Source of the DNA: Comamonadaceae bacterium
GTDB lineage: Bacteria > Pseudomonadota > Gammaproteobacteria > Burkholderiales > Burkholderiaceae
Length of the DNA stretch: 20,482 nucleotides
NCBI GenBank assembly: GCA_947374535.1
Contig: CANCCJ010000041.1
Coordinates: forward strand, 1 to 20,482
Direction: 5' to 3'
Shown: piece by piece, positions 9 to 15,628 of the stretch
How the letters are laid out: every line of letters begins with the position of its first letter
Position numbering within the stretch: the first letter of the stretch is position 1
Notes under the pieces: generated by a model
What the model was told of the DNA's origin: nothing
Database searches by the model: none
Seen by the model: the letters and a program-made list of their open reading frames with translations, nothing else
Made by a program: the position numbers and the translations under genes

Positions 9-93
9 GCCCGGGTGGTGAAATTGGTAGACGCAGGGGACTCAAAATCCCCCGCCGCGAGGCGTGCCGGTTCGATTCCGGCCCCGGGCACCA
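9..93 (+). tRNA. tRNA-Leu (anticodon CAA)
   Basis: Complete tRNA of 85 bases with encoded CCA (91-93). The acceptor stem pairs GCCCGGG (9-15) with CCCGGGC (83-89), with discriminator A90. The anticodon stem is 36-40 with 48-52, around the loop CTCAAAA at 41-47, so the anticodon CAA (43-45) reads the UUG leucine codon. The T arm carries the GGTTCGATTCC core (69-79). A long variable arm between anticodon and T arms marks it as a class II tRNA, as expected for leucine. Its promoter lies mostly outside the window. Confidence 0.97.
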
Positions 94-141: not shown

Positions 142-1548
142 ATGAATGACGACGACTTTTCCAACATAGTCAGAAGTGGCACTGGCCACCACGTATCGGT
201 TTCCGAACACACTGGCAACGCCAAAAATCCAAAAAATATCGTCACCTCTCATGCAGAAGAGACTGAGGCACGTAAACGCGCGTTTGAAGACAAAGCGCTG
301 GCCTCTTTGGAAGCAGAAAAAGCATTAGCAGCCGCGCTTGCAGAACACACGGAGCACATCTCACTAGCTGACGGTGCAGTTGACGCCAACCTTCAAAAAG
401 TTGCAGCTAACCAAGAGATAAACAATCGCCAAGGCCTTGCCAACCAAGGGATCGCCAAACCGAACGTACAAAACGTTTCCACTGAGGTGCTTGAAGCCAA
501 TCAGCAAAAAATTGGCACGGACAAGATTCAAGACAACATTCAATCCGTCGGGAATGGCAAAGGCGTTGCACCTAACTTACAAAACGTCTCAACGGATGTG
601 ATGGCGTCAAACCAACAAAGCGTTGGTGGTGGCAACATTGCGGCAAATAAACAAAATATTTCTGGCGAAAAAGCGATTGAAACCAATCGACAAGGTATTC
701 CAACCGATGTCACGGCCTCCAATGTGCAAAACATTCCCATCGGGAGCATCGCAGCCAACGTGCAAGGCATCGGCGGCAACGCCATCGTTGCCAACAGCCA
801 AGCCATTCCTCAAGACAAGATTGGGCTTAACCGCCAAGGTCTAGACAAAGGTCCAGCCGCAGCCGCTAACTTGCAAGCACTGCCCAAGGACGATGTGGCA
901 ACCAATCGCCAATCGCTAGGTCAAGACGGGAACGCCAAAAACCAACAAGGCATCACTGCCAATGCCCTGGGCCCCAACGAACAAAAATTGGCGCTGTTGG
1001 GTGCGCAAGATAACCAGCAAGCACTTGAACAAGATAGCTTTGCCAATAACCGACAGCCCATCCCACAAGCCCCCGGCATAGCCCCAAACAACCAACCCAT
1101 CGGCGCTGAGGCTGCCTCACTCAACCGTCAAGCGGCGCCACAAGATGCGCCTCCTGGTCCGAATCGCCAAGGCGTGGGCAATGACAAAATTGAATCGCAT
1201 TTCGAACAGCTCCCTTCCGACGATCTTGAGCGCAAAAAAGTAACCTTCCCGACGGGCGCACAGAGCGGCAACACGACGCAAGCATCTGCTGATTCAACGA
1301 CATCAAATGCCGCCAAGCGCAACCCAGCCGCGGCACCAGTCAAGCCTTTGTCGGCGGCTGAACAACAGCTACAAATCAAGCTCAAACGCGAGCAAATGAA
1401 TGATGCGTTTCATGGACGGCTCGCTGGCATCAAACACAACGTCGATGCGCTCAACAACCGTCTGACGAACTTTGAAGACAAAGTGCATAAAGAAGATGCC
1501 AAGTTGGACAAAGGCAATCCCGAAGACTTCGACATAGAGCTGGACTAA
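142..1548 (+). CDS. Uncharacterised N-x-Q tandem-repeat protein
   Basis: I do not recognise this 468-residue protein. Residues 1-37 are polar, about 38-70 are Glu/Ala/Lys-rich and probably helical, 83-352 are 22 consecutive units of 12 or 13 residues each opening with N-x-Q, about 355-403 are low-complexity Ser/Thr/Ala/Pro, and about 404-456 look like a coiled coil before an acidic tail. There is no signal peptide, no membrane segment, and no Trp, Tyr or Cys, so it is predicted to be soluble and cytoplasmic. The frame is open back into the tRNA (ATG at 64), but ATG 142 is the first start outside the tRNA and is chosen for that reason; no clear Shine-Dalgarno precedes it. A strong terminator follows. 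The alternating N-x-Q-x-[ILV] pattern suggests stacked beta strands (a beta-solenoid or amyloid-like array), which is inference. It is certainly an intact coding frame; its function is unknown. Confidence 0.85.
   Translation: MNDDDFSNIVRSGTGHHVSVSEHTGNAKNPKNIVTSHAEETEARKRAFEDKALASLEAEKALAAALAEHTEHISLADGAVDANLQKVAANQEINNRQGLANQGIAKPNVQNVSTEVLEANQQKIGTDKIQDNIQSVGNGKGVAPNLQNVSTDVMASNQQSVGGGNIAANKQNISGEKAIETNRQGIPTDVTASNVQNIPIGSIAANVQGIGGNAIVANSQAIPQDKIGLNRQGLDKGPAAAANLQALPKDDVATNRQSLGQDGNAKNQQGITANALGPNEQKLALLGAQDNQQALEQDSFANNRQPIPQAPGIAPNNQPIGAEAASLNRQAAPQDAPPGPNRQGVGNDKIESHFEQLPSDDLERKKVTFPTGAQSGNTTQASADSTTSNAAKRNPAAAPVKPLSAAEQQLQIKLKREQMNDAFHGRLAGIKHNVDALNNRLTNFEDKVHKEDAKLDKGNPEDFDIELD
388..1197 (+). 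repeat. 22 tandem 36/39-bp coding repeats (N-x-Q units)
   Basis: The segment encodes residues 83-352. Units begin at residues 83, 95, 108, 120, 132, 145, 157, 169, 182, 194, 206, 218, 230, 243, 255, 267, 279, 291, 303, 316, 328 and 341. Asn at position 1 and Gln at position 3 are present in all 22 units, and position 5 is Ile, Val or Leu in all but one (Ala in unit 21). Positions 9-11 usually carry another small or aliphatic residue. Sixteen units are 12 residues and six are 13. A decayed unit (HFEQLPSDDLE) follows at 353-363. The DNA is much more diverged than the protein pattern, which points to old duplication held by selection on N and Q. Confidence 0.9.
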
Positions 1549-1599: not shown

Positions 1600-1625
1600 A
1601 GCCTGCTTCACACGCAGGCTTTTTT
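1600..1625 (+). terminator. Rho-independent terminator after the repeat-protein gene
   Basis: AGCCTGC (1600-1606) pairs with GCAGGCT (1614-1620) around a 7-base loop, followed by a run of six T ending at 1625. It lies 51 bases past the repeat-protein stop and only 16 bases before the start of the next gene, so it also sits in that gene's leader. Confidence 0.85.
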
Positions 1626-1641
1626 GTTTCATGGAGTTCCC

Positions 1642-2763
1642 TTGAGCCACCTCTTTTCTGAATTCACCCTCACCTCGCCACGCGGCCCACTCAACTTGGC
1701 CAACCGCGCCATCGTCGCGCCCATGTGTCAATATTCCGCCGACAACGGCCAAGCGACCGACTGGCACCTGATGCATTGGGGCAATTTGCTCAACAGTGGC
1801 GCAGCCATGTTCATCATCGAGGCCACCGCGGTCACACCACGCGGCCGAATCACGCCTCTGTGCTTGGGTTTGTGGGACGACGCCACTGCCGCAGCCTTGA
1901 ACGACAAGCTCAACCGTGCGCGCAAATTGGCACCCCATGTGCCTGTCTGTATCCAGCTCGCCCATGCAGGACGCAAAGCCTCAAGCGCCGCGCCCTGGCA
2001 AGGCGGCCAACTTCTCACGCCAGAACAAGGAGGTTGGGCCACAAAAGCCCCCTCACCGATTGCCCATTTAGAGCAAGAAGCTGCTCCGCATGAAATAGAC
2101 GCGAAGGGCTTAGAAGACATCAAACAAGCCTTCGTCAAAGCCGCCGAGCGTGCCGATGCAATAGGCATTGACGCCATTGAACTGCACGGCGCCCACGGCT
2201 ATTTGTTGCACCAGTTTTTGTCACCCGTTGCCAATCAGCGCACCGACAACTACGGCGGCAATTTTGAAAACCGCACTCGCTTTCCCATGGAAGTCTTCCA
2301 AGCGGTACGCGCGGTGTTCAAAGGCACAGTCGGCATGCGCATCTCTGCCTCCGACTGGGTCGAAGGCGGCTGGACGCCCGAAGAAACCGCAGACTTCTCG
2401 CTGCACCTCAAGCTCGCAGGCGCGGACTTTGTACACATCTCATCAGGCGGCGTATCTGCGCAACAAAAGATTGCGCTTGGCCCCGATTACCAAGTGCCTT
2501 TCGCCAAACTGGTGAAACAAAAAACAGGAATGCCCACCATCACCGTGGGCCTCATCACCGAGCCTCAGCAAGCCGAAGACATCTTGGCGCGCGGCGATGC
2601 CGACCTGATCGCCATGGCACGCGCCTTCCTCTACAACCCCCGCTGGGTCTGGCAAGCTGCGGCTGCGCTTCACGGCACCGTCGAAGCCAGCCCGCAATAC
2701 TGGCGCTGCATGCCACGCGAAGCACAAGGCATTTTTGATGCTGTGCGCATGGGTCAACGATAA
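1642..2763 (+). CDS. Old Yellow Enzyme-family NADH:flavin oxidoreductase (YqjM/NamA-like)
   Basis: FMN-dependent ene-reductase of the Old Yellow Enzyme family, expected to reduce activated C=C bonds of enals, enones or similar compounds with NAD(P)H in the cytoplasm. From the chosen TTG start the protein has 373 residues. PMCQYS near residues 27-32 matches the YqjM-class active-site Cys/Tyr region (Cys29, Tyr31). HGAHGYL supplies the substrate-binding pair His182 and His185, followed by the family signature around NYGGNFENRTRF. TTG 1642 is preferred because GGAG (1633-1636) stands 5 bases upstream; a TTG at 1624 would lie inside the terminator T-tract. The Bug receptor gene begins 20 bases downstream, so the two are probably co-transcribed. 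The substrate cannot be read from sequence. Confidence 0.93.
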   Translation: MSHLFSEFTLTSPRGPLNLANRAIVAPMCQYSADNGQATDWHLMHWGNLLNSGAAMFIIEATAVTPRGRITPLCLGLWDDATAAALNDKLNRARKLAPHVPVCIQLAHAGRKASSAAPWQGGQLLTPEQGGWATKAPSPIAHLEQEAAPHEIDAKGLEDIKQAFVKAAERADAIGIDAIELHGAHGYLLHQFLSPVANQRTDNYGGNFENRTRFPMEVFQAVRAVFKGTVGMRISASDWVEGGWTPEETADFSLHLKLAGADFVHISSGGVSAQQKIALGPDYQVPFAKLVKQKTGMPTITVGLITEPQQAEDILARGDADLIAMARAFLYNPRWVWQAAAALHGTVEASPQYWRCMPREAQGIFDAVRMGQR

Positions 2764-2783
2764 AAACAAACAGGAGACACACC

Positions 2784-3779
2784 GTGCAACACCTCACACG
2801 TCGCAGCCTCAACACCGCATTGATCGCGGCCAGCGTCCTAGGCGCAAGCAGTTTTCTCGCACCATTGACCGCGCAGGCAGATGCCTACCCCAGCAAACCC
2901 ATCACGCTGGTCGTGCCCAACCCACCGGGTGGCTTGGTCGACACCTCGGCGCGCTTGGTCAGCGAGCCTTTGTCACGCGTCACAGGTCAATCGGTGGTGG
3001 TCGACAACAAACCGGGTGGCAGTGGCAACTTGGCTTACTCACAGGTCGCACGCAGCCCCAAAGACGGCTACACCGTGCTGGTGTCGTACTCGGGCTATCA
3101 CATCGCCAACCCCATCCTGATGGACAAGTTGCCGTGGGAAATCAAAGACCTCACACCGATAGGCCTTATCACCGTCGCCACCAACGTGATTGCCGTGCAC
3201 CCGTCCGTGCCTGCCAACACGCTGAAAGAGTTCATCACTTGGGCCAAACAAAACCCAGGCAAAGTGAACTACGCCTCGCAAGGCAATGGTTCGGTGTCGC
3301 ACATCGGCACGGAAATTTTCAAACAGCAAACCGGCATTGAAATGACGCATGTGCCCTACAAGGGTTCGGGCCAAGCGATTCAAGACGTGTTGGCCGGTCA
3401 GGTGCAGGTGTTTATCACCACACCGCCCTCAGTGATGGGCCATGTGCTTAACGGCAAGCTCAAAGCGTTGGCGGTGACAGGCAAAACGCGTCACCCACAA
3501 CTGCCGCAAGTGCCCACCGCTGCCGAAGCAGGTTTGAGCGGCTTTGAATTGGAGTCGTGGGTGGCGTTGTACGTCGCCAGCGGCACGCCCAAGGAGGTGG
3601 TGCAAAAACTATCGGCAGATGTGAAGCACAGCATCGAGTTGCCAGAAACCAAACAGCGCGCAGACGCTGCGGGCGTCGAGGTGCGTTACCTCTCGCCTGA
3701 GAACACCACCAAGCTGTTAGAACGCGACACGGCGAACTGGGCCAAAGCCATCAAGGCTGGGAACATCAAGTTTGATTAA
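2784..3779 (+). CDS. Bug-family tripartite tricarboxylate transporter substrate-binding protein
   Basis: Periplasmic solute-binding protein of the Bug (Bordetella uptake gene) family, which binds small carboxylates or related compounds. It has 331 residues, a normal family length. The signal peptide (about 1-32) has paired arginines TRRSLN near residue 5, a hydrophobic core, and a likely cleavage after AQA32. The mature start YPSKPITLVVP is a hallmark, followed by GGLVDTSAR, the VVDNKPGGSGNLA loop and DGYTVLV. The start is GTG, with AGGAGA at 2772-2777. No TctA or TctB membrane genes are in the window, so it is an orphan receptor. It overlaps the convergent SDR gene by 14 bases. The ligand is unknown. 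Confidence 0.93.
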   Translation: MQHLTRRSLNTALIAASVLGASSFLAPLTAQADAYPSKPITLVVPNPPGGLVDTSARLVSEPLSRVTGQSVVVDNKPGGSGNLAYSQVARSPKDGYTVLVSYSGYHIANPILMDKLPWEIKDLTPIGLITVATNVIAVHPSVPANTLKEFITWAKQNPGKVNYASQGNGSVSHIGTEIFKQQTGIEMTHVPYKGSGQAIQDVLAGQVQVFITTPPSVMGHVLNGKLKALAVTGKTRHPQLPQVPTAAEAGLSGFELESWVALYVASGTPKEVVQKLSADVKHSIELPETKQRADAAGVEVRYLSPENTTKLLERDTANWAKAIKAGNIKFD

Positions 3780-4689
3780 GTAAACCGGCTTGCGTATCGG
3801 GGTAGCGCAGCTGCAAACGCAGCTCGCGCTTCATGCGCGTGTTCATCATGCGACGTGACTCGCTCATGAAACTCAGCTGCATGGCGGGCAGCTCGGTTTG
3901 CGCTTGGGCTCGGCTGACGCGCGGCGGCTTCGCCAATCCATACAACCCAGCCGCCATGTCAAAGTAGTCGCCCATCAACATCTGACTGTCGTCATTCACG
4001 TTGTAAGTGCGCTGAGGTTTGCCGCGCCACAACGCCAACTGGCATGCGCGCGCCAAATCGTTGGCATGGATATGGTTGGTAAAGACATCGTCCTCCCGCG
4101 CCAGCACAGGCGTGCCTCGCAACAAGCGCTCACGCGGCGTGCCGCCCTCGCGGTCGGGCGCATAAATGCCGGGAATACGCAGCACGTTTACCCGCACCGC
4201 ATTTGATCTCAAACGACCCAAATGACGCACACGCGCTTCGGCGTCCACGCGGCGCAGCGCCCTCGGCGTGAGGGGCTTGACCGAACGGCTTTCACTCACC
4301 CACTCACCCGCGCAGTTACCGTACACACCGCTGGTCGAGCCATACACCACACTGCGTGGCGCACTGCGGCGCATCAGCATTCGCGTCAATGCCAAGGTCC
4401 GTGGGTCGGTGCTGCCCTGCAAAGGCGGGGGAGCCAAGTGCAGCACCCGCGTGGCCCAGCCTGCCAACCTTTGCAAACTGGCCGGCACGTCTAAATTACC
4501 CACGATGGGCGTCACACCTTGGGCACGCAAGGCCGGCACACGCGCAGGGCTAGAGGTGAGCGCGACCACTCGCACATGACGCTGCGCAAGCACCACGCGC
4601 TGACCCACATCACCGCAGCCGATGATGAGCAAACGCTCGCGTTTGAAGCGGGAAGGCAGTGCGCCGAGGGGGGATTGATTGGAAGGCAA
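3766..4689 (-). CDS. Atypical SDR / NAD-dependent epimerase-dehydratase family protein
   Basis: Predicted 307-residue cytoplasmic NAD(P)-binding protein of the extended or atypical short-chain dehydrogenase group (YeeZ-like). The Rossmann fold starts at residues 19-30, with RLLIIGCGDVG giving the G-x-G-x-x-G loop (Gly24, Gly26, Gly29). Further on are HLAPPPLQG, the strand STSGVYGN, and RALRRVDAEARVR where classical members would place the catalytic Tyr-x-x-x-Lys. I see no standard YxxxK pair, so enzymatic activity is uncertain. The start is TTG with AGGG six bases upstream; no in-frame ATG fits. It is divergent from the flavoprotein reductase with a 34-base gap and overlaps the end of the Bug gene by 14 bases. 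Confidence 0.85.
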   Translation of the reverse strand: MPSNQSPLGALPSRFKRERLLIIGCGDVGQRVVLAQRHVRVVALTSSPARVPALRAQGVTPIVGNLDVPASLQRLAGWATRVLHLAPPPLQGSTDPRTLALTRMLMRRSAPRSVVYGSTSGVYGNCAGEWVSESRSVKPLTPRALRRVDAEARVRHLGRLRSNAVRVNVLRIPGIYAPDREGGTPRERLLRGTPVLAREDDVFTNHIHANDLARACQLALWRGKPQRTYNVNDDSQMLMGDYFDMAAGLYGLAKPPRVSRAQAQTELPAMQLSFMSESRRMMNTRMKRELRLQLRYPDTQAGLLNQT

Positions 4690-7811: not shown

Positions 7812-8522
7812 TGCACGCACTTTGGGGTCGTGCAGCATGTCATGCGCGTCCCCACTCAAAGTGATCAATCCCGACTCCATCACATAGCCACGGTCGGCAA
7901 TTTGAAGCGCGCGGCTGGCGTTTTGCTCGACCAACAAAATCGTCACACCTTGGGCCGACACCTCTTGAATCACTTCAAAGATTTTGTCCACCATGATGGG
8001 TGACAAGCCCATCGAAGGCTCGTCGAGCAACAACACTTTGGGGCGACTCATCAACGCACGGCCCATGGCCAACATTTGTTGCTCACCGCCCGACATGGTG
8101 CCTGCCAATTGGTCGCGCCGTTCTTTCAAACGCGGGAACGTGGTGAACACGCGCTCGATGTCGTCGGCAATGGCCGCGTTGTCGTTGCGAATGTAGGCAC
8201 CCATTTGCAAGTTCTCAACGATGGTCATGCGCGTGAACACGCCACGACCTTCGGGCACCATCGCCAAACCTTGTTGCACCAAATCCCAAGGGCCAAGGCC
8301 AGCAATCGTTTGACCAGCCAATTCAATCTGGCCACCCCCCAAAGTGAGGAGCCCCGTGATGGCTTTCATGGTGGTGGTTTTACCTGCGCCGTTAGAGCCG
8401 ATGAGCGATACCAATTCGCCCTCGCGCACTTCTAAGCTCACGCCTTTGACGGCTTGAATGCCGCCATAAGCCACCTTCACATCGCGCACGTTCAGCAGCA
8501 CAGCTGCGTTATCTTTTTTCAT
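7794..8522 (-). CDS. livF: Branched-chain amino acid ABC transporter ATP-binding protein LivF
   Basis: Cytoplasmic ATPase subunit of a LivHMGF-type importer, 242 residues. Visible motifs are Walker A GSNGAGKTT, the Q-loop region, the signature MSGGEQQMLAMGRAL, Walker B VLLLDEPSMGL and the switch HVL-type segment LLVEQNASRAL characteristic of LivF. The start ATG 8522 is one base past the livG stop (8524-8526), indicating translational coupling; a TTG at 8555 would only add residues overlapping livG. It is the last gene of the rarA-livHMGF run. Substrate class could be branched-chain amino acids or related amides, since Liv-type systems have diversified. Confidence 0.95.
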   Translation of the reverse strand: MKKDNAAVLLNVRDVKVAYGGIQAVKGVSLEVREGELVSLIGSNGAGKTTTMKAITGLLTLGGGQIELAGQTIAGLGPWDLVQQGLAMVPEGRGVFTRMTIVENLQMGAYIRNDNAAIADDIERVFTTFPRLKERRDQLAGTMSGGEQQMLAMGRALMSRPKVLLLDEPSMGLSPIMVDKIFEVIQEVSAQGVTILLVEQNASRALQIADRGYVMESGLITLSGDAHDMLHDPKVRAAYLGE

Positions 8523-8523
8523 C

Positions 8524-9300
8524 TCAATGCGCTCCCGTGCCGAGATAGGCTTCAATCACTTGTGGGTCGCGCTGCACGTCTGCGGGTGTGCCTTGCGCAA
8601 TCACTCGGCCATAGTCGAGCACCGTCACGCGGTCACACAGTCCCATGACCAACTTCACGTCATGCTCAATCAGCAGCACGGTGCGGTGGTCGCGGCGAAT
8701 TTTGTCAATCAACTCGCGCAGCTGCACTTTCTCGGTGGCGTTCATGCCAGCCGCGGGTTCGTCCAGCGCGATGAGTTTGGGGTCCGTCGCCAAAGCGCGT
8801 GCAATTTCTAAACGACGTTGATCGCCATAACTCAACGTGCGCGCTTTGTAGTCGGCCAAGTTGTCAATGCCCACGTAATCCAGTAGCTCGCGTGCGCGTT
8901 GCTCTATCGCCAGCTCTTCGACTTTGAATTTTTTGGTTCTGAAAATCGCGCCCAACAAACCCGAGCTCGTACGCACATGTCGGCCCACCATCACGTTTTC
9001 TAACGCGGTCATCTCGGCAAACAAACGGATGTTTTGAAACGTGCGTGCAATGCCCGCTTGCGCGACCCGATGCACTTCGGTGGGCTGATACGGTTTGCCT
9101 GCCAATTCAAAGCTGCCGCTATCTGGCGTATACAAGCCAGTGATGACGTTGAAGAACGTGGTCTTACCAGCGCCGTTGGGGCCAATCAAACCATAGACCT
9201 GACCGCGTTCAATTTGCATGCCCACATCGCTCAAGGCCTGCAAGCCGCCAAAGCGCTTGGAGATGCCCGCCACATCAAAAACAAGTTCTGGCGCGCTCAT
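8524..9300 (-). CDS. livG: Branched-chain amino acid ABC transporter ATP-binding protein LivG
   Basis: Second ATPase subunit, 258 residues. It shows Walker A GPNGAGKTT, a signature LSYGDQRRLEIARAL, Walker B LIALDEPAAGM with the LivG-type AAGMN continuation, and LLIEHDVKLVMGLCDR near the C-terminus, which is diagnostic for LivG. ATG 9300 is preceded 6 bases upstream by a full AAGGAGG ribosome site (on the minus strand, 9307-9313) and overlaps the livM stop as ATGA. Longer in-frame starts inside livM are not needed. Confidence 0.96.
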   Translation of the reverse strand: MSAPELVFDVAGISKRFGGLQALSDVGMQIERGQVYGLIGPNGAGKTTFFNVITGLYTPDSGSFELAGKPYQPTEVHRVAQAGIARTFQNIRLFAEMTALENVMVGRHVRTSSGLLGAIFRTKKFKVEELAIEQRARELLDYVGIDNLADYKARTLSYGDQRRLEIARALATDPKLIALDEPAAGMNATEKVQLRELIDKIRRDHRTVLLIEHDVKLVMGLCDRVTVLDYGRVIAQGTPADVQRDPQVIEAYLGTGAH

Positions 9301-10385
9301 CGCTGGCCTCCTTGTGGGTTCAAATTTTTGCCATGTTCTGGCGTGGGCCACAAGCCCCGAGGTTTCCAAATCATGATGATGACCATGGCCAAAGCAATCA
9401 ACAACTGGCGCATGATGGCGGCGTCTAATCGGCCATCCGTCATCTCTTGGAGAGGGCCGGCTACAAAGCGCAACACCTCTGGCAGCGCGGCCAAAAGCAC
9501 CGCACCGAGAATGACACCGGGCAAGTGACCCAAGCCACCCAAGACCACCATCGCCACAATCATCACCGACTCCATGAGGCTGAACGACTCAGGCGACACA
9601 AAGCTTTGAAAGGCTGCGAACATGGCACCCGACACGCCGCCAAAGGTGGCGCCCATGCCAAAGGCCATGAGCTTCAAGTTGCGCGTGTTCAGACCCATGG
9701 CTTTGGCTGCAATCTCGTCTTCGCGAATCGCCATCCATGCACGACCAATGCGCGAGTACTCAAGGCGATGGCAAATCACCACACTCACCAACACCAGCGT
9801 GAGGAACAGGTAGTAATACAAGGTGACCGAGGGCAACTCGATGAAACCCAAATCCAAACGCCGAGACAGCGGGTACCCAAATACCGAGACCGGATCAATC
9901 TGCCCCAAACCCCGAGGCCCATTGGTGATGTTGAGCGGGTGATCCAGGTTGTTCAAAAACACGCGAATGATTTCGCCAAAGCCCAAGGTGACGATGGCGA
10001 GGTAATCGCCACGCAGCTTGAGCGTGGGTGCGCCCAGCAGCACGCCGGCTAGGCCAGCGGTGCCCGCCGCCAATGGCAACACCAGCCACAGGCTCAAGTG
10101 CAAGCCATCTGGAAACATGGCGGCAATCCACGGAAACACCTCGGTCAACTGGGGCGAAGCCAACAGAGCAAACATATAAGCACCGACGGCAAAGAAAGCC
10201 ACGTAACCCAAGTCAAGCAAGCCCGCGTAGCCCACCACAATGTTCAGGCCCAGCGCCAGCAACACGTAGAGCAGCGACATGTCAGCGATGCGTACCCACG
10301 CATTGCCAAAGTTTTGCAGCACCAGTGGCAACACCAGCAAGACGGCGGCCATGAGCCAACGGTTGGAGAAAAGTTTGTGTTGCAT
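9297..10385 (-). CDS. livM: Branched-chain amino acid ABC transporter permease LivM
   Basis: Integral membrane permease subunit, 362 residues, with about nine to ten hydrophobic segments. Family landmarks are LLYVLLALGLNIVVGYAGLL near the N-terminus, LRGDYLAIVTLGFGEIIRV in the middle (the ATPase-contact region), RIGRAWMAIREDEIAAKAMG, and GGLGHLPGVILGA toward the C-terminus. ATG 10385 is preferred: AGGG stands 10 bases upstream, while a TTG at 10394 overlapping the livH stop has no usable spacing. It is coupled to livG by an ATGA overlap. Confidence 0.94.
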   Translation of the reverse strand: MQHKLFSNRWLMAAVLLVLPLVLQNFGNAWVRIADMSLLYVLLALGLNIVVGYAGLLDLGYVAFFAVGAYMFALLASPQLTEVFPWIAAMFPDGLHLSLWLVLPLAAGTAGLAGVLLGAPTLKLRGDYLAIVTLGFGEIIRVFLNNLDHPLNITNGPRGLGQIDPVSVFGYPLSRRLDLGFIELPSVTLYYYLFLTLVLVSVVICHRLEYSRIGRAWMAIREDEIAAKAMGLNTRNLKLMAFGMGATFGGVSGAMFAAFQSFVSPESFSLMESVMIVAMVVLGGLGHLPGVILGAVLLAALPEVLRFVAGPLQEMTDGRLDAAIMRQLLIALAMVIIMIWKPRGLWPTPEHGKNLNPQGGQR

Positions 10386-12741: not shown

Positions 12742-15312
12742 ATGAAACCTCACGATCACTGGACGGTGATCAAGTTCGGTATCCGCTCCAAACTCATCGC
12801 ACTCTTTGTCGTCATCAAAGTGCTGCCGTTGATCTTGCTGGCTTATTTGGCTTGGCAAGGGGTAGAGCAACTTGGTTTGAGCTTGTCACAAGAAACCGAC
12901 CAACTCGTCGAGGACGTTCAGACGACGGTCTCAGACATGAGCAAGCGCTTTGCCAAGGAATCGGTCCAAGCCTTGGATAGTCGCGCGCGTGAAGAGCTCG
13001 AGCGCCTCACCACCGACACAGCACGCGCCGTAGCCGATTTTTTGTACGACCGCGACCGCGACATCTTGCTGGCGGCCACGCTGCCAACGAACGACCCGCA
13101 ATACCAAGCGTTTCTGGATACACGCACGCGCTTCACCACCCAAGCAGGCTCATGGAAACTTTCTGCAGACGGCGAGAGTTGGGAACCCACAAACAAAACC
13201 GAACCGCCATTTGATTTGGCTTTGTCACTCAACGCAGAGAACCTGCAAGACTTTCACTCTCGCCCACCTGAAGCCGTGAGCCGTACCGTCCCCTCACCGC
13301 TGTATTACGAGCTCACGTTCATCGATTTGAACGGCCAAGAGTTGATCAAAGCCTCTCGAGGCAATGTGCTGCCCAAGGGCTTACGCGATGTCTCTCAAAA
13401 AGCCAACACTTGGAGCAAAGCCGAGACGTACTTCCATGCGCTCAAGGCGCTCAAACCGGGGCAAATTTACGTCTCAGAAGTGGTTGGCCCTTATGTGCCA
13501 TCCCACGTGATTGGCCCAGTCACCCCAGTGAACAGCCAACGCGCAGGCGTGCCCTTTGAACCCACCCAAGAAGCGTTCGCAGGTCAAGAAAACCCACTTG
13601 GCAAACCATTTCAAGGCATCGTGCGTTGGGCAACGCCTGTGGTGCGAGAGGGCAAGATCACGGGCTACGTCACCTTGGCGTTGAACCACAGCCACATTCG
13701 CAGTTTCACCGACAACCTCACCCCCACACCACAACGCTACACCGCGATACCCGACGCCAGCAGTGGCAACTACGCCTTCATGTGGGACAACAAAGACCAC
13801 AACATCGCCCACCCCCGCCATTACTCCATCATGGGGTTTGACCCCAATACCGGTGAATACGCCACGCCGTGGCTGGATGAAAGCATCTACAAAAACTGGA
13901 AAGCCAGCAAAAAACCGCTGAAAGACTTTCTCAGCACTGAACGTATGTTTGACCACCAAAGCCGTGACAAAAAACCGGCTAAAGAACTCACCCAAGCTGG
14001 ACTGTTGGGCTTGGACTGTCGGTATTTGAACTTCGCGCCCCAATGCCAAGGCTGGCATGACTTGACCCAACAGGGGGGTTCCGGCTCCTTTTTGATTTTG
14101 TGGTCGGGCGTGTGGAAACGTACCACGGCTGCCGCCATTCCTTATTTCACAGGACAGTACGCCAACTCGCCACGTGGCTTTGGCTACATCACAATTGGTG
14201 CCAATGTCGAAGACTTTCATGCGCCTGCCGTTGCCACCACGGATTTGATGAACGAAAAAGTAGCCGAATTCGGCGAACGGTTGAAGCACAAACAAGCAGG
14301 GCTTCAAAACATGATTGAACGCTCTGTGGACTACACAGCCGCCAACCTCACGGGATCAACCATGGTGATGTTGGTGTTGGTCTTGGTGGTGGCCGTTTGG
14401 TTGGCATCCTTACTGACACGCCGCGTGACGGATTTGGTCGAAGGCTTGGCCCGCATTGAGGCAGGCGATTTATCTTTTCGTTTTCAACGCGGTGCACACG
14501 ATGAGTTAGGGCATTTGAACCAATCGCTCAATCACATGGCAGATAGCGTGCAATCCTCTTTTGAACAAAGCGAGTCTGCCCGTAGGCAAGCCGAAGAAAA
14601 CAGCCAAATGAAAAGCGACTTTGTGGCCAATGTGTCGCATGAATTGCGCACGCCCCTCAACGGCATCTTGGGCTTTTCCGAAATCATCCTAGAAGACGCC
14701 AAAGACGAAGAAACCCGAGAATTCGCCCAAACCATCCACCAAAGTGGGCAACACCTGTTGTCTGTGGTCAACGACATGTTGGATGTGGCAAAAATCGAAG
14801 CTGGCCACATGACGTTGGACCCCGTCTCGGTCAACATCAAAACATTGCTGGATGAAGTGGCCCTGCTGCACACCAACTGCGCACAACAAAAGGGACTTCA
14901 GTTGCAAGTGCACTTCGCAGACAACTTGCCCGAACGCATGCGCACCGACCCCACACGACTGCGCCAGGTGATCAACAACTTGCTGAGCAACGCCATCAAG
15001 TTCACGAGCGTGGGTGAAGTGACCTTGTCAGCCGCTTGGACAGGGCATGAGTTGGTCATCGGCGTGCGAGACACAGGCCCGGGTATCGCACCGCATGTGC
15101 AAGAGATTGTGTTTGAGCGCTTTCGACAAGCCACTTCATTTGTCACCCGCGAACATGGCGGCACGGGTTTGGGGTTGGCCTTGGTCCGTGAGTTTGTGAA
15201 ATTGATGGGCGGCACATTGCAACTGAATTCGCAACTGGGCCAAGGGGCCTACTTTGAGGTTTCGATTCCCGAACTTAATCAGGCAGTACACGCAACAAGT
15301 CTTGAGAGCTGA
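12742..15312 (+). CDS. Membrane sensor histidine kinase with large periplasmic sensor domain
   Basis: Inner-membrane sensor kinase of 856 residues. TM1 spans about 18-38 and carries Lys26 within it. A helical segment (about 45-115) leads into a long periplasmic region up to about 535, probably Cache-like but not recognised as a named domain, with a cysteine pair Cys426/Cys435 that could form a disulfide. TM2 is about 540-558, HAMP about 559-611 (RRVTDLVEGLARIEAGDLSF), the H-box SHELRTPLNG has phospho-acceptor His633, the N-box includes Asn746, G1 is DTGPG (777-781) and G2 is GGTGLGLAL from 806. There is no attached receiver. No Shine-Dalgarno precedes ATG 12742. Its 3' end overlaps a convergent receiver gene by 38 bases, which is the likely partner. 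The signal is unknown. Confidence 0.93.
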   Translation: MKPHDHWTVIKFGIRSKLIALFVVIKVLPLILLAYLAWQGVEQLGLSLSQETDQLVEDVQTTVSDMSKRFAKESVQALDSRAREELERLTTDTARAVADFLYDRDRDILLAATLPTNDPQYQAFLDTRTRFTTQAGSWKLSADGESWEPTNKTEPPFDLALSLNAENLQDFHSRPPEAVSRTVPSPLYYELTFIDLNGQELIKASRGNVLPKGLRDVSQKANTWSKAETYFHALKALKPGQIYVSEVVGPYVPSHVIGPVTPVNSQRAGVPFEPTQEAFAGQENPLGKPFQGIVRWATPVVREGKITGYVTLALNHSHIRSFTDNLTPTPQRYTAIPDASSGNYAFMWDNKDHNIAHPRHYSIMGFDPNTGEYATPWLDESIYKNWKASKKPLKDFLSTERMFDHQSRDKKPAKELTQAGLLGLDCRYLNFAPQCQGWHDLTQQGGSGSFLILWSGVWKRTTAAAIPYFTGQYANSPRGFGYITIGANVEDFHAPAVATTDLMNEKVAEFGERLKHKQAGLQNMIERSVDYTAANLTGSTMVMLVLVLVVAVWLASLLTRRVTDLVEGLARIEAGDLSFRFQRGAHDELGHLNQSLNHMADSVQSSFEQSESARRQAEENSQMKSDFVANVSHELRTPLNGILGFSEIILEDAKDEETREFAQTIHQSGQHLLSVVNDMLDVAKIEAGHMTLDPVSVNIKTLLDEVALLHTNCAQQKGLQLQVHFADNLPERMRTDPTRLRQVINNLLSNAIKFTSVGEVTLSAAWTGHELVIGVRDTGPGIAPHVQEIVFERFRQATSFVTREHGGTGLGLALVREFVKLMGGTLQLNSQLGQGAYFEVSIPELNQAVHATSLES

Positions 15313-15628
15313 TGGGCTTGACCAACAGGTCATCAAAGCCCGCAGCCATGATGCTTTGACGCTCTGATGCCATCGCATGGGCCGTGTAGGCCACCACCCA
15401 CAGCTTGGCCAAATCAGGATTACCGCGGATGCTGCAGCAAACCTCCTTGCCATCCATCATCGGCATGCTGATGTCTAACAAGACCGAGTCAAAACGCCCG
15501 TCTTTCAACATCTCAAGCGCCACACTGCCGCCATCCGCCTCTTCCACGTGCATGCCGCGGCGCTTGAGCAAGGCCACCGCCAACTTTCGATTGACGGCGT
15601 TGTCGTCGACGACCAAAACAGATCTCAT
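15275..15628 (-). CDS. Stand-alone CheY-like response regulator receiver
   Basis: Single-domain receiver of 117 residues without an output domain. The acidic pair Asp8/Asp9 (VVDDN), phospho-acceptor Asp52 (LLDISMPMMDG), Thr82 (AYTAHA) and Lys104 (LVKPIS) are all present, so it should be phosphorylated normally. VVDDNAVNRKLA and the MMDG pattern resemble receivers found at the C-terminus of hybrid kinases, which suggests that it works with the facing kinase, perhaps as a phosphate shuttle; that pairing is inference. ATG 15628 follows an AT-rich leader with GAGG about 11 bases upstream. Its stop lies 38 bases inside the kinase coding sequence on the opposite strand. Confidence 0.93.
   Translation of the reverse strand: MRSVLVVDDNAVNRKLAVALLKRRGMHVEEADGGSVALEMLKDGRFDSVLLDISMPMMDGKEVCCSIRGNPDLAKLWVVAYTAHAMASERQSIMAAGFDDLLVKPISSQDLLRVLPD

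Follow-up and report, generated by a model that had tools for sequence, protein, structure and literature searches.

The window, that is, the whole stretch of 20,482 nucleotides that was analysed, opens with a tRNA-Leu (CAA) gene followed by an ORF of 468 codons, whose middle part is an array of short N-x-Q repeats. The features of this part of the window are listed below.

9..93, + strand: tRNA-Leu (CAA), called by ARAGORN; ends 48 nt 5′ of the repeat-protein ORF
142..1548, + strand: CDS of the repeat protein, 468 aa; ATG at 142, stop at 1548, start codon backed by conservation of the N-terminus, MNDDDFS
142..249, + strand: conserved N-terminal peptide, aa 1-36, DDDFSxIVRSGxxHxVSVSExTGNAKxPKN, from the alignment of relatives; 0 indels in 300 pairwise alignments of 25 relatives
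253..345, + strand: helix predicted by AlphaFold2, aa 38-68
388..1197, + strand: repeat array, aa 83-352, of 22 N-x-Q units with 12 or 13 residues; from the ORF translation, shuffles, and the selection and register analyses
1198..1218, + strand: exit motif HFEQLPS, aa 353-359, with H353 and P358 hardly varying in the alignment
1219..1353, + strand: fast-evolving, indel-rich linker, from the selection and indel analyses; low AlphaFold2 pLDDT at aa 371-389
1354..1503, + strand: C-terminal helix or coiled coil, aa 405-454; AlphaFold2 pLDDT 90-93 for aa 411-450, heptad core assigned by eye
1459..1476, + strand: RLTNFE, aa 440-445, resembling the R-h-x-x-h-E trimer motif, with Phe at d
1600..1630, + strand: terminator-like hairpin (1600-1620) and T-run, downstream of the stop

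In the protein, the array is flanked by the N-terminal peptide and the C-terminal coiled coil. Eight Phe residues are present; Tyr, Trp, and Cys are absent, as the initial annotation had pointed out. No signal peptide was visible by eye, and a strongly hydrophobic 19-residue stretch was found in 0 of 40 soluble relatives; the protein therefore appears to be intracellular, in agreement with the earlier view.

tRNA-Leu also lies 45 to 68 nt 5′ of the array ORF in 11 further aligned loci, and the gap is about 216 nt in locus L011. A scan of positions 1-1700 yielded no sigma-70-like promoter and just one terminator-like site on the + strand, located 3′ of the repeat ORF stop. Thus, tRNA-Leu and the repeat ORF probably share one transcript. 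In locus L008, the gene directly after tRNA-Leu(CAA) encodes a flavin oxidoreductase, and no full-length array gene intervenes (2424-3962); an array gene resides elsewhere in the same locus (8001-9638). This arrangement suggests loss or relocation. Further along the window (12742-15628) lie genes for a HAMP histidine kinase (+) and a stand-alone receiver domain (−), whose 3′ ends overlap at 15275-15312.

Units, selection, and register of the array

The initial annotation described 22 consecutive 12-residue units, each opening with an invariant Asn-x-Gln that is nearly always followed by x-[Ile/Val/Leu]. The count and the span were exact: 22 N-x-Q starts run from aa 83 to 341 (nt 388 to 1162), and the last unit ends at nt 1197. 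Asn and Gln are each present in 22/22 units, position 5 is I, V, or L in 21/22, and D and I are the commonest residues at positions 8 and 10, respectively. The length of 12 applies to 15 of the 21 intervals, whereas the other 6 comprise 13 residues, so the unit is better given as 12/13. Each unit appears to be laid out as a core, (hydrophobic)-x-x-N-x-Q-x-(hydrophobic), and a short turn-like spacer, P/G/A-x-D-x. In 20,000 shuffles, N-x-Q occurred on average 4.6 times (maximum 13) when the whole protein was shuffled and 4.8 times (maximum 15) when the array alone was used. Mean DNA identity between units is 45%, and TRF reported no DNA tandem repeat at the array, suggesting that the pattern is old and has been maintained at the protein level.

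We compared seven orthologues in 21 pairs, which are not independent of one another. The pN/pS ratio was 0.009 at N1 and 0.04 at Q3, with categories assigned from one member per pair, a slight bias in favour of these two positions. The ratio was 0.345 at position 2, 0.348 at position 5, and 0.40 at the other array positions, which bears out the earlier remark that most other positions drift. Outside the array, it was 0.42 in the C-terminal linker, 0.22 in the N-terminal peptide, and 0.17 in the C-terminal coiled-coil region. Identity reached 97.7% at N1 and 98.1% at Q3; the invariance ascribed to the two residues thus holds within this protein but falls to about 98% in near orthologues. These data indicate strong purifying selection on Asn and Gln, with the other array positions drifting like the adjoining linker. 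In distant paralogues, the 12-residue period is kept and N is replaced by H or D and Q by V, A, or K, which argues that the repeat does not depend on an Asn/Gln ladder as such.

The register was evaluated in 70 dereplicated proteins, including P0109, a fragment of the TerB-type protein introduced below; the other 69 served for trimer-motif and composition counts. Among intervals shorter than 15 residues, 831 of 850 measured 12 (594) or 13 (237), and 119 of 145 longer ones measured 24, 25, 36, 37, 48, or 49 residues. In 300 pairwise alignments of 25 relatives, non-unit indels, defined as those not within one residue of whole units, occurred at 1.7 per 1000 aligned residues in the array versus 26.7 in the C-terminal linker, which evolves as fast; they are thus about 16 times rarer in the array. 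Even the C-terminal helix region, at 3.7, exceeded the array; the N-terminal linker had a rate of 3.2, and the N-terminal peptide had 0. Despite the extra residue, the second hydrophobic residue of the 13-mers keeps a fixed distance to the next Asn, and the succession of 12- and 13-residue units starts alike in several orthologues. Length differences between close homologues were a multiple of 12 in 254 of 339 soluble pairs and in 477 of 538 TerB-type pairs (pairs not independent). Altogether, these comparisons point to an array in which most residues are free, N, Q, and length are constrained, and copy number changes by whole units.

Such a pattern bears on another view of the protein, an entropic bristle or hydrophilin-like stress protein whose array need only be long and soluble. 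The array is hydrophilic and weakly charged with a single aromatic residue, and no structure is predicted for it, as that view would have it; position-specific selection on N and Q, locked spacing, and conserved ends are all unexpected of a bristle, which we consider very unlikely.

Predicted structure and candidate identities

The initial annotation envisaged Asn, Gln, and the aliphatic residue on one side of an extended strand, stacked as Asn/Gln ladders like those of beta-solenoids or functional amyloids. Structure prediction gave no sign of such strands. The AlphaFold2 model of this protein (74 aligned sequences) contains helices at 38-68 and 405-454, with array pLDDT of about 40 and no strand; in the model of a relative with perfect 12-mers, P0103 (56 sequences), array pLDDT was near 27, again with no strand. 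Both models are of single chains, so folding on assembly lies outside their scope. Elsewhere in P0103, the TerB part was mostly at pLDDT 75-93, followed by a helix (663-687) and then a beta domain (690-814).

These models, which lack stacked beta coils, therefore do not support a beta-solenoid or amyloid-like stack that would be self-sufficient and built on Asn and Gln ladders, and the replacement of N and Q in paralogues counts against it as well. What survives of the ladder proposal is the constraint on both residues and the locked register: N and Q would face the same side of an extended strand, the turn-like P/G-x-D recurs at fixed register, and the 12/13 spacing with conserved, putatively inward positions is as regular as a ladder-like or other ordered assembly would require. 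Curli CsgA and FapC likewise have repeats with regularly spaced Asn and Gln, which is where the likeness lies. Unlike these amyloids, the present protein has no secretion signal that we could see, no Tyr or Trp, a 12/13 unit, and no predicted strand, and Pfam, NCBIfam, and PDB yielded no sequence match to curli, to Fap, or to another amyloid or solenoid family. We now regard this earlier reading as distinctly unlikely.

At pLDDT of about 40 and about 27, the repetitive part is predicted to be disordered, in line with our main rival reading, a disordered multivalent scaffold in which each N-x-Q-x-(hydrophobic) docks one copy of a client and the coiled coil clusters chains into a hub or condensate. 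CsoS2 and PopZ are disordered scaffolds with repeats or an oligomerising helix, and they resemble our protein in having conserved ends around a repetitive, apparently disordered middle, although we found no sequence relation. Very low array pLDDT and the absence of secondary structure there in both models, a hydrophilic and weakly charged composition, drifting spacer residues, and copy number that shifts by whole units are all in accord with a scaffold. However, spacer length between the binding motifs of CsoS2/PopZ-like scaffolds is expected to be free, and here it is locked, as the scarcity of non-unit indels relative to the linker demonstrates; such locking is needless for free linkers between independent motifs. 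Moreover, no client is evident in the gene neighbourhoods. On balance, we consider a scaffold of this kind somewhat unlikely.

Searches of Pfam, NCBIfam, PHROGs, and PADLOC returned no family match at cut-off for the repeat protein, and PDB no chain at E<=0.001, in line with the initial statement that no named family with this exact repeat was known. Membership in DUF6586 (PF20227) was rejected, the score for aa 37-102 being 23.1 bits against a gathering cut-off of 27, and a PDB match to GATOR1 DEPDC5 (E 0.022, 17 bits) was taken as chance. A mobile or defence origin was likewise discarded: no relative was confirmed in viral_contigs, there was no phage or plasmid match, and 0 of 4 proteins matched in PADLOC. 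A literature search of titles and the starts of abstracts, largely in journals open without subscription, found no description of the repeat.

The triple beta-spiral of adenovirus fibre and reovirus sigma1 is, in the excerpted description (PMC3150272), a trimer of short repeats with hydrophobic positions and a Gly/Pro turn that can include a coiled coil, and our protein is similar in each of these respects except the trimer state, discussed below. The consensus given in the same excerpts has 15 positions, with hydrophobics at c, e, g, k, and m and P/G at j (PMC3150272). In contrast to these 15 positions with five hydrophobics, the present unit has 12/13 residues with two, at positions 5 and 10; the candidate was rejected, with no signal of common descent.

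The C-terminal coiled coil has a heptad core assigned by eye to F423, L427, I430, V434, L437, L441, and F444, and F423, R426, I430, V434, and L441 are invariant in alignments of relatives. As excerpted, the strict trimer motif reads Arg(g)-h(a)-x-x-[LIV](d)-Glu(e), with Leu, Ile, or Val at d (PMC3653964), and FapF is cited as an example of R-h-x-x-h-E in PMC6173795. The strict form was found in 8 of 69 representatives, or 12 of 69 if Met is allowed at d, and not in this protein, which has Phe at d. The relaxed form R-h-x-x-[LIVMF]-E closes the coiled coil in 52 of 69 representatives and here (RLTNFE). As so few representatives carry the strict motif, a trimeric state is a guess.

Range of the family and the TerB-fused form

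A phmmer search with the repeat protein retrieved 102 proteins, among them P0102, a TerB fusion. A profile search retrieved 283 proteins, and none of the 120 matches listed carries a Pfam domain or a functional name. Profile A3, which detects both soluble and TerB-fused forms, matched, at E<=1e-4, 76 of the 84 genomes examined in the genus to which Limnohabitans sp. Jir61 belongs. In the order sample, 1 of 300 genomes matched at this threshold, namely that of Limnohabitans sp. Jir61 itself (G001, the source of locus L004). In the family sample, 5 of 299 matched at E<=1e-3; four are members of the genus, and the fifth (G469, E 1.2e-5) was discarded, since the frames viewed at its locus, L096, lack the repeat and encode a membrane protein whose tail is helical and one other protein. 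The repeat is thus restricted to one genus in the samples searched. From homologues and gene order, we infer that the source genome belongs to that genus.

The family often has several copies per genome, and its paralogue classes occupy different neighbourhoods without a common partner. A conserved partner gene was therefore rejected: neighbours vary between classes and are housekeeping-like, and the downstream genes shared within the tRNA-Leu class reflect orthology of place, not a functional partner. One class (L016, L017, L019, L021, and L024) adjoins a Kup-type potassium transporter gene, and in L017 there is a small downstream gene with a DsrE-like domain. A short paralogue in Limnohabitans sp. 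Jir61 (L037, G001:C1:652114-652581, 254-residue frame) resembles the other members in its N-terminal peptide; its repeats are few, and it has a helix at the C-terminus.

In a second protein of the same genus, the same 12-residue array stands behind tandem TerB (PF05099). TerB scored above the Pfam cut-off in all 7 proteins scanned, with two stretches in six, whereas the 468-aa protein has no TerB domain above that cut-off. The array of the fusion aligned with the soluble one at an hhalign probability of 98.9%, and the TerB-array proteins also have a helix with an LxxLDxxE-like pattern, noted by eye. Profile A4 matched 45 of 84 genomes of the genus at E<=1e-50, 41 with a frame of at least 433 aa and 4 with only a short TerB. 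All of the 41 but G315 and G376 also hold a soluble member (39 of 41, read by eye from the best matches). Conversely, a long TerB-type frame at E<=1e-50 is lacking in 35 of the 76 genomes of the genus in which the array was matched; either the soluble form does not need the TerB-type protein, or the assemblies are incomplete. In the family sample, A4 matched 17 of 299 genomes, 3 in full form (all genus members) and 14, from outside the genus, over one TerB stretch only.

A hydrophobic 19-residue stretch after residue 400 was present in 31 of 39 TerB-type proteins at KD>=1.2 and in 20 of 39 at >=1.6, compared to 0 of 40 soluble ones. Among the 8 of 39 without this segment, three (G318, G369, and G315) have a Cys-rich tail at their end; the remaining five are apparently cut by a contig or stretch end. 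The TerB-array proteins of L063, L073, and L078, without a clear hydrophobic segment, bear a Cys/His-rich tail, CxxCGNPxCLFTHH, possibly a metal site. Acidic DG-x5-E-like motifs are metal sites of TerB, and four DG-x5-E motifs are invariant or nearly so in the 25 TerB-array rows of alignment A4 (D35-G36-E42, D99-G100-E106, D170-G171-E177, and D234-G235-E241 in P0103). Some TerB-array proteins have a beta-rich domain after a probable membrane helix, as P0103 does at 690-814. A Foldseek search with the TerB-type model gave no match at E<=0.001, and none for the C-terminal beta domain; the sole sensible match was 2h5n (probability 1.00, E 0.1, TM-score by target 0.54-0.61), which we take to be TerB-like.

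Spacer profiles of soluble and TerB-type arrays were closer within than between genomes (0 of 20,000 shuffles) across the 29 usable genome pairs out of 39, the other 10 being dropped for fewer than 4 N-x-Q-x-[ILV] in an array or a protein missed by the pattern. The z value was −5.1, and −4.1 in 21 dereplicated genomes. As controls, linker composition alone gave z −3.0, folded parts had no effect (p 0.15), and 200 position permutations averaged z −1.7, some of them exceeding the real value (to −6.2) and none reaching the real mean difference. The within-genome co-variation is partly compositional drift and constitutes weak support.

A possible cytosolic assembly

Free residues, combined with N, Q, and a length that are fixed, speak for a regular assembly rather than for motifs loosely strung together. 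Our preferred reading, plausible although we would not call it probable, is an elongated cytosolic assembly, a fibre or tether, that folds on oligomerisation. The C-terminal coiled coil would bring two or three chains together, and the aligned units might stack in turn, forming a regular rod or fibre with a length that would be set by the number of units. The TerB-type protein, with the same array and often a hydrophobic C-terminal segment, may be what anchors or nucleates this assembly at the inner membrane. Folding on oligomerisation, the fibre or tether function, contact between both proteins, and membrane anchoring are all conjectural steps of this model.

We counted for the assembly the selection on N1 and Q3, the locked 12/13 spacing, and length change by whole units, together with the spacing of the 13-mers to the next Asn, the helix pLDDT of 90-93, the TerB-fused arrays and their co-occurrence with soluble members, and the hydrophobic segments. 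Counted against it were the structureless array in AlphaFold2, the replacement of N-x-Q in paralogues, the 35 of 76 genomes without a TerB-type frame, the rarity of the strict trimer motif, the partly compositional co-variation, and the lack of a Foldseek match at E<=0.001 for the TerB-type model. A small chance is left to something else altogether.

A bolder form of the assembly reading, which we consider unlikely, is a new intracellular fibrous fold that would be structured only when the coiled coil aligns the chains. Whole-unit copy number would tune the length of the rods, tandem-TerB proteins with the same repeat would hold them at the inner membrane, and the system, cytoskeleton-like or sensory, would be peculiar to a single freshwater genus.

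The repeat thus defines an unnamed protein family found in most of the genomes examined in a single genus and in no other genome sampled. The pattern of selection is unusually clean, with two fixed polar residues, a fixed length, and a free remainder. That a second protein, in many cases membrane-linked, carries the repeat too is a hint of an undescribed internal scaffold, and the fusions would give TerB, a poorly understood domain, a testable partner. Should the array fold only on assembly, it would represent a small fibrous repeat of a new kind, for which nature offers biophysics a ready series of copy numbers.
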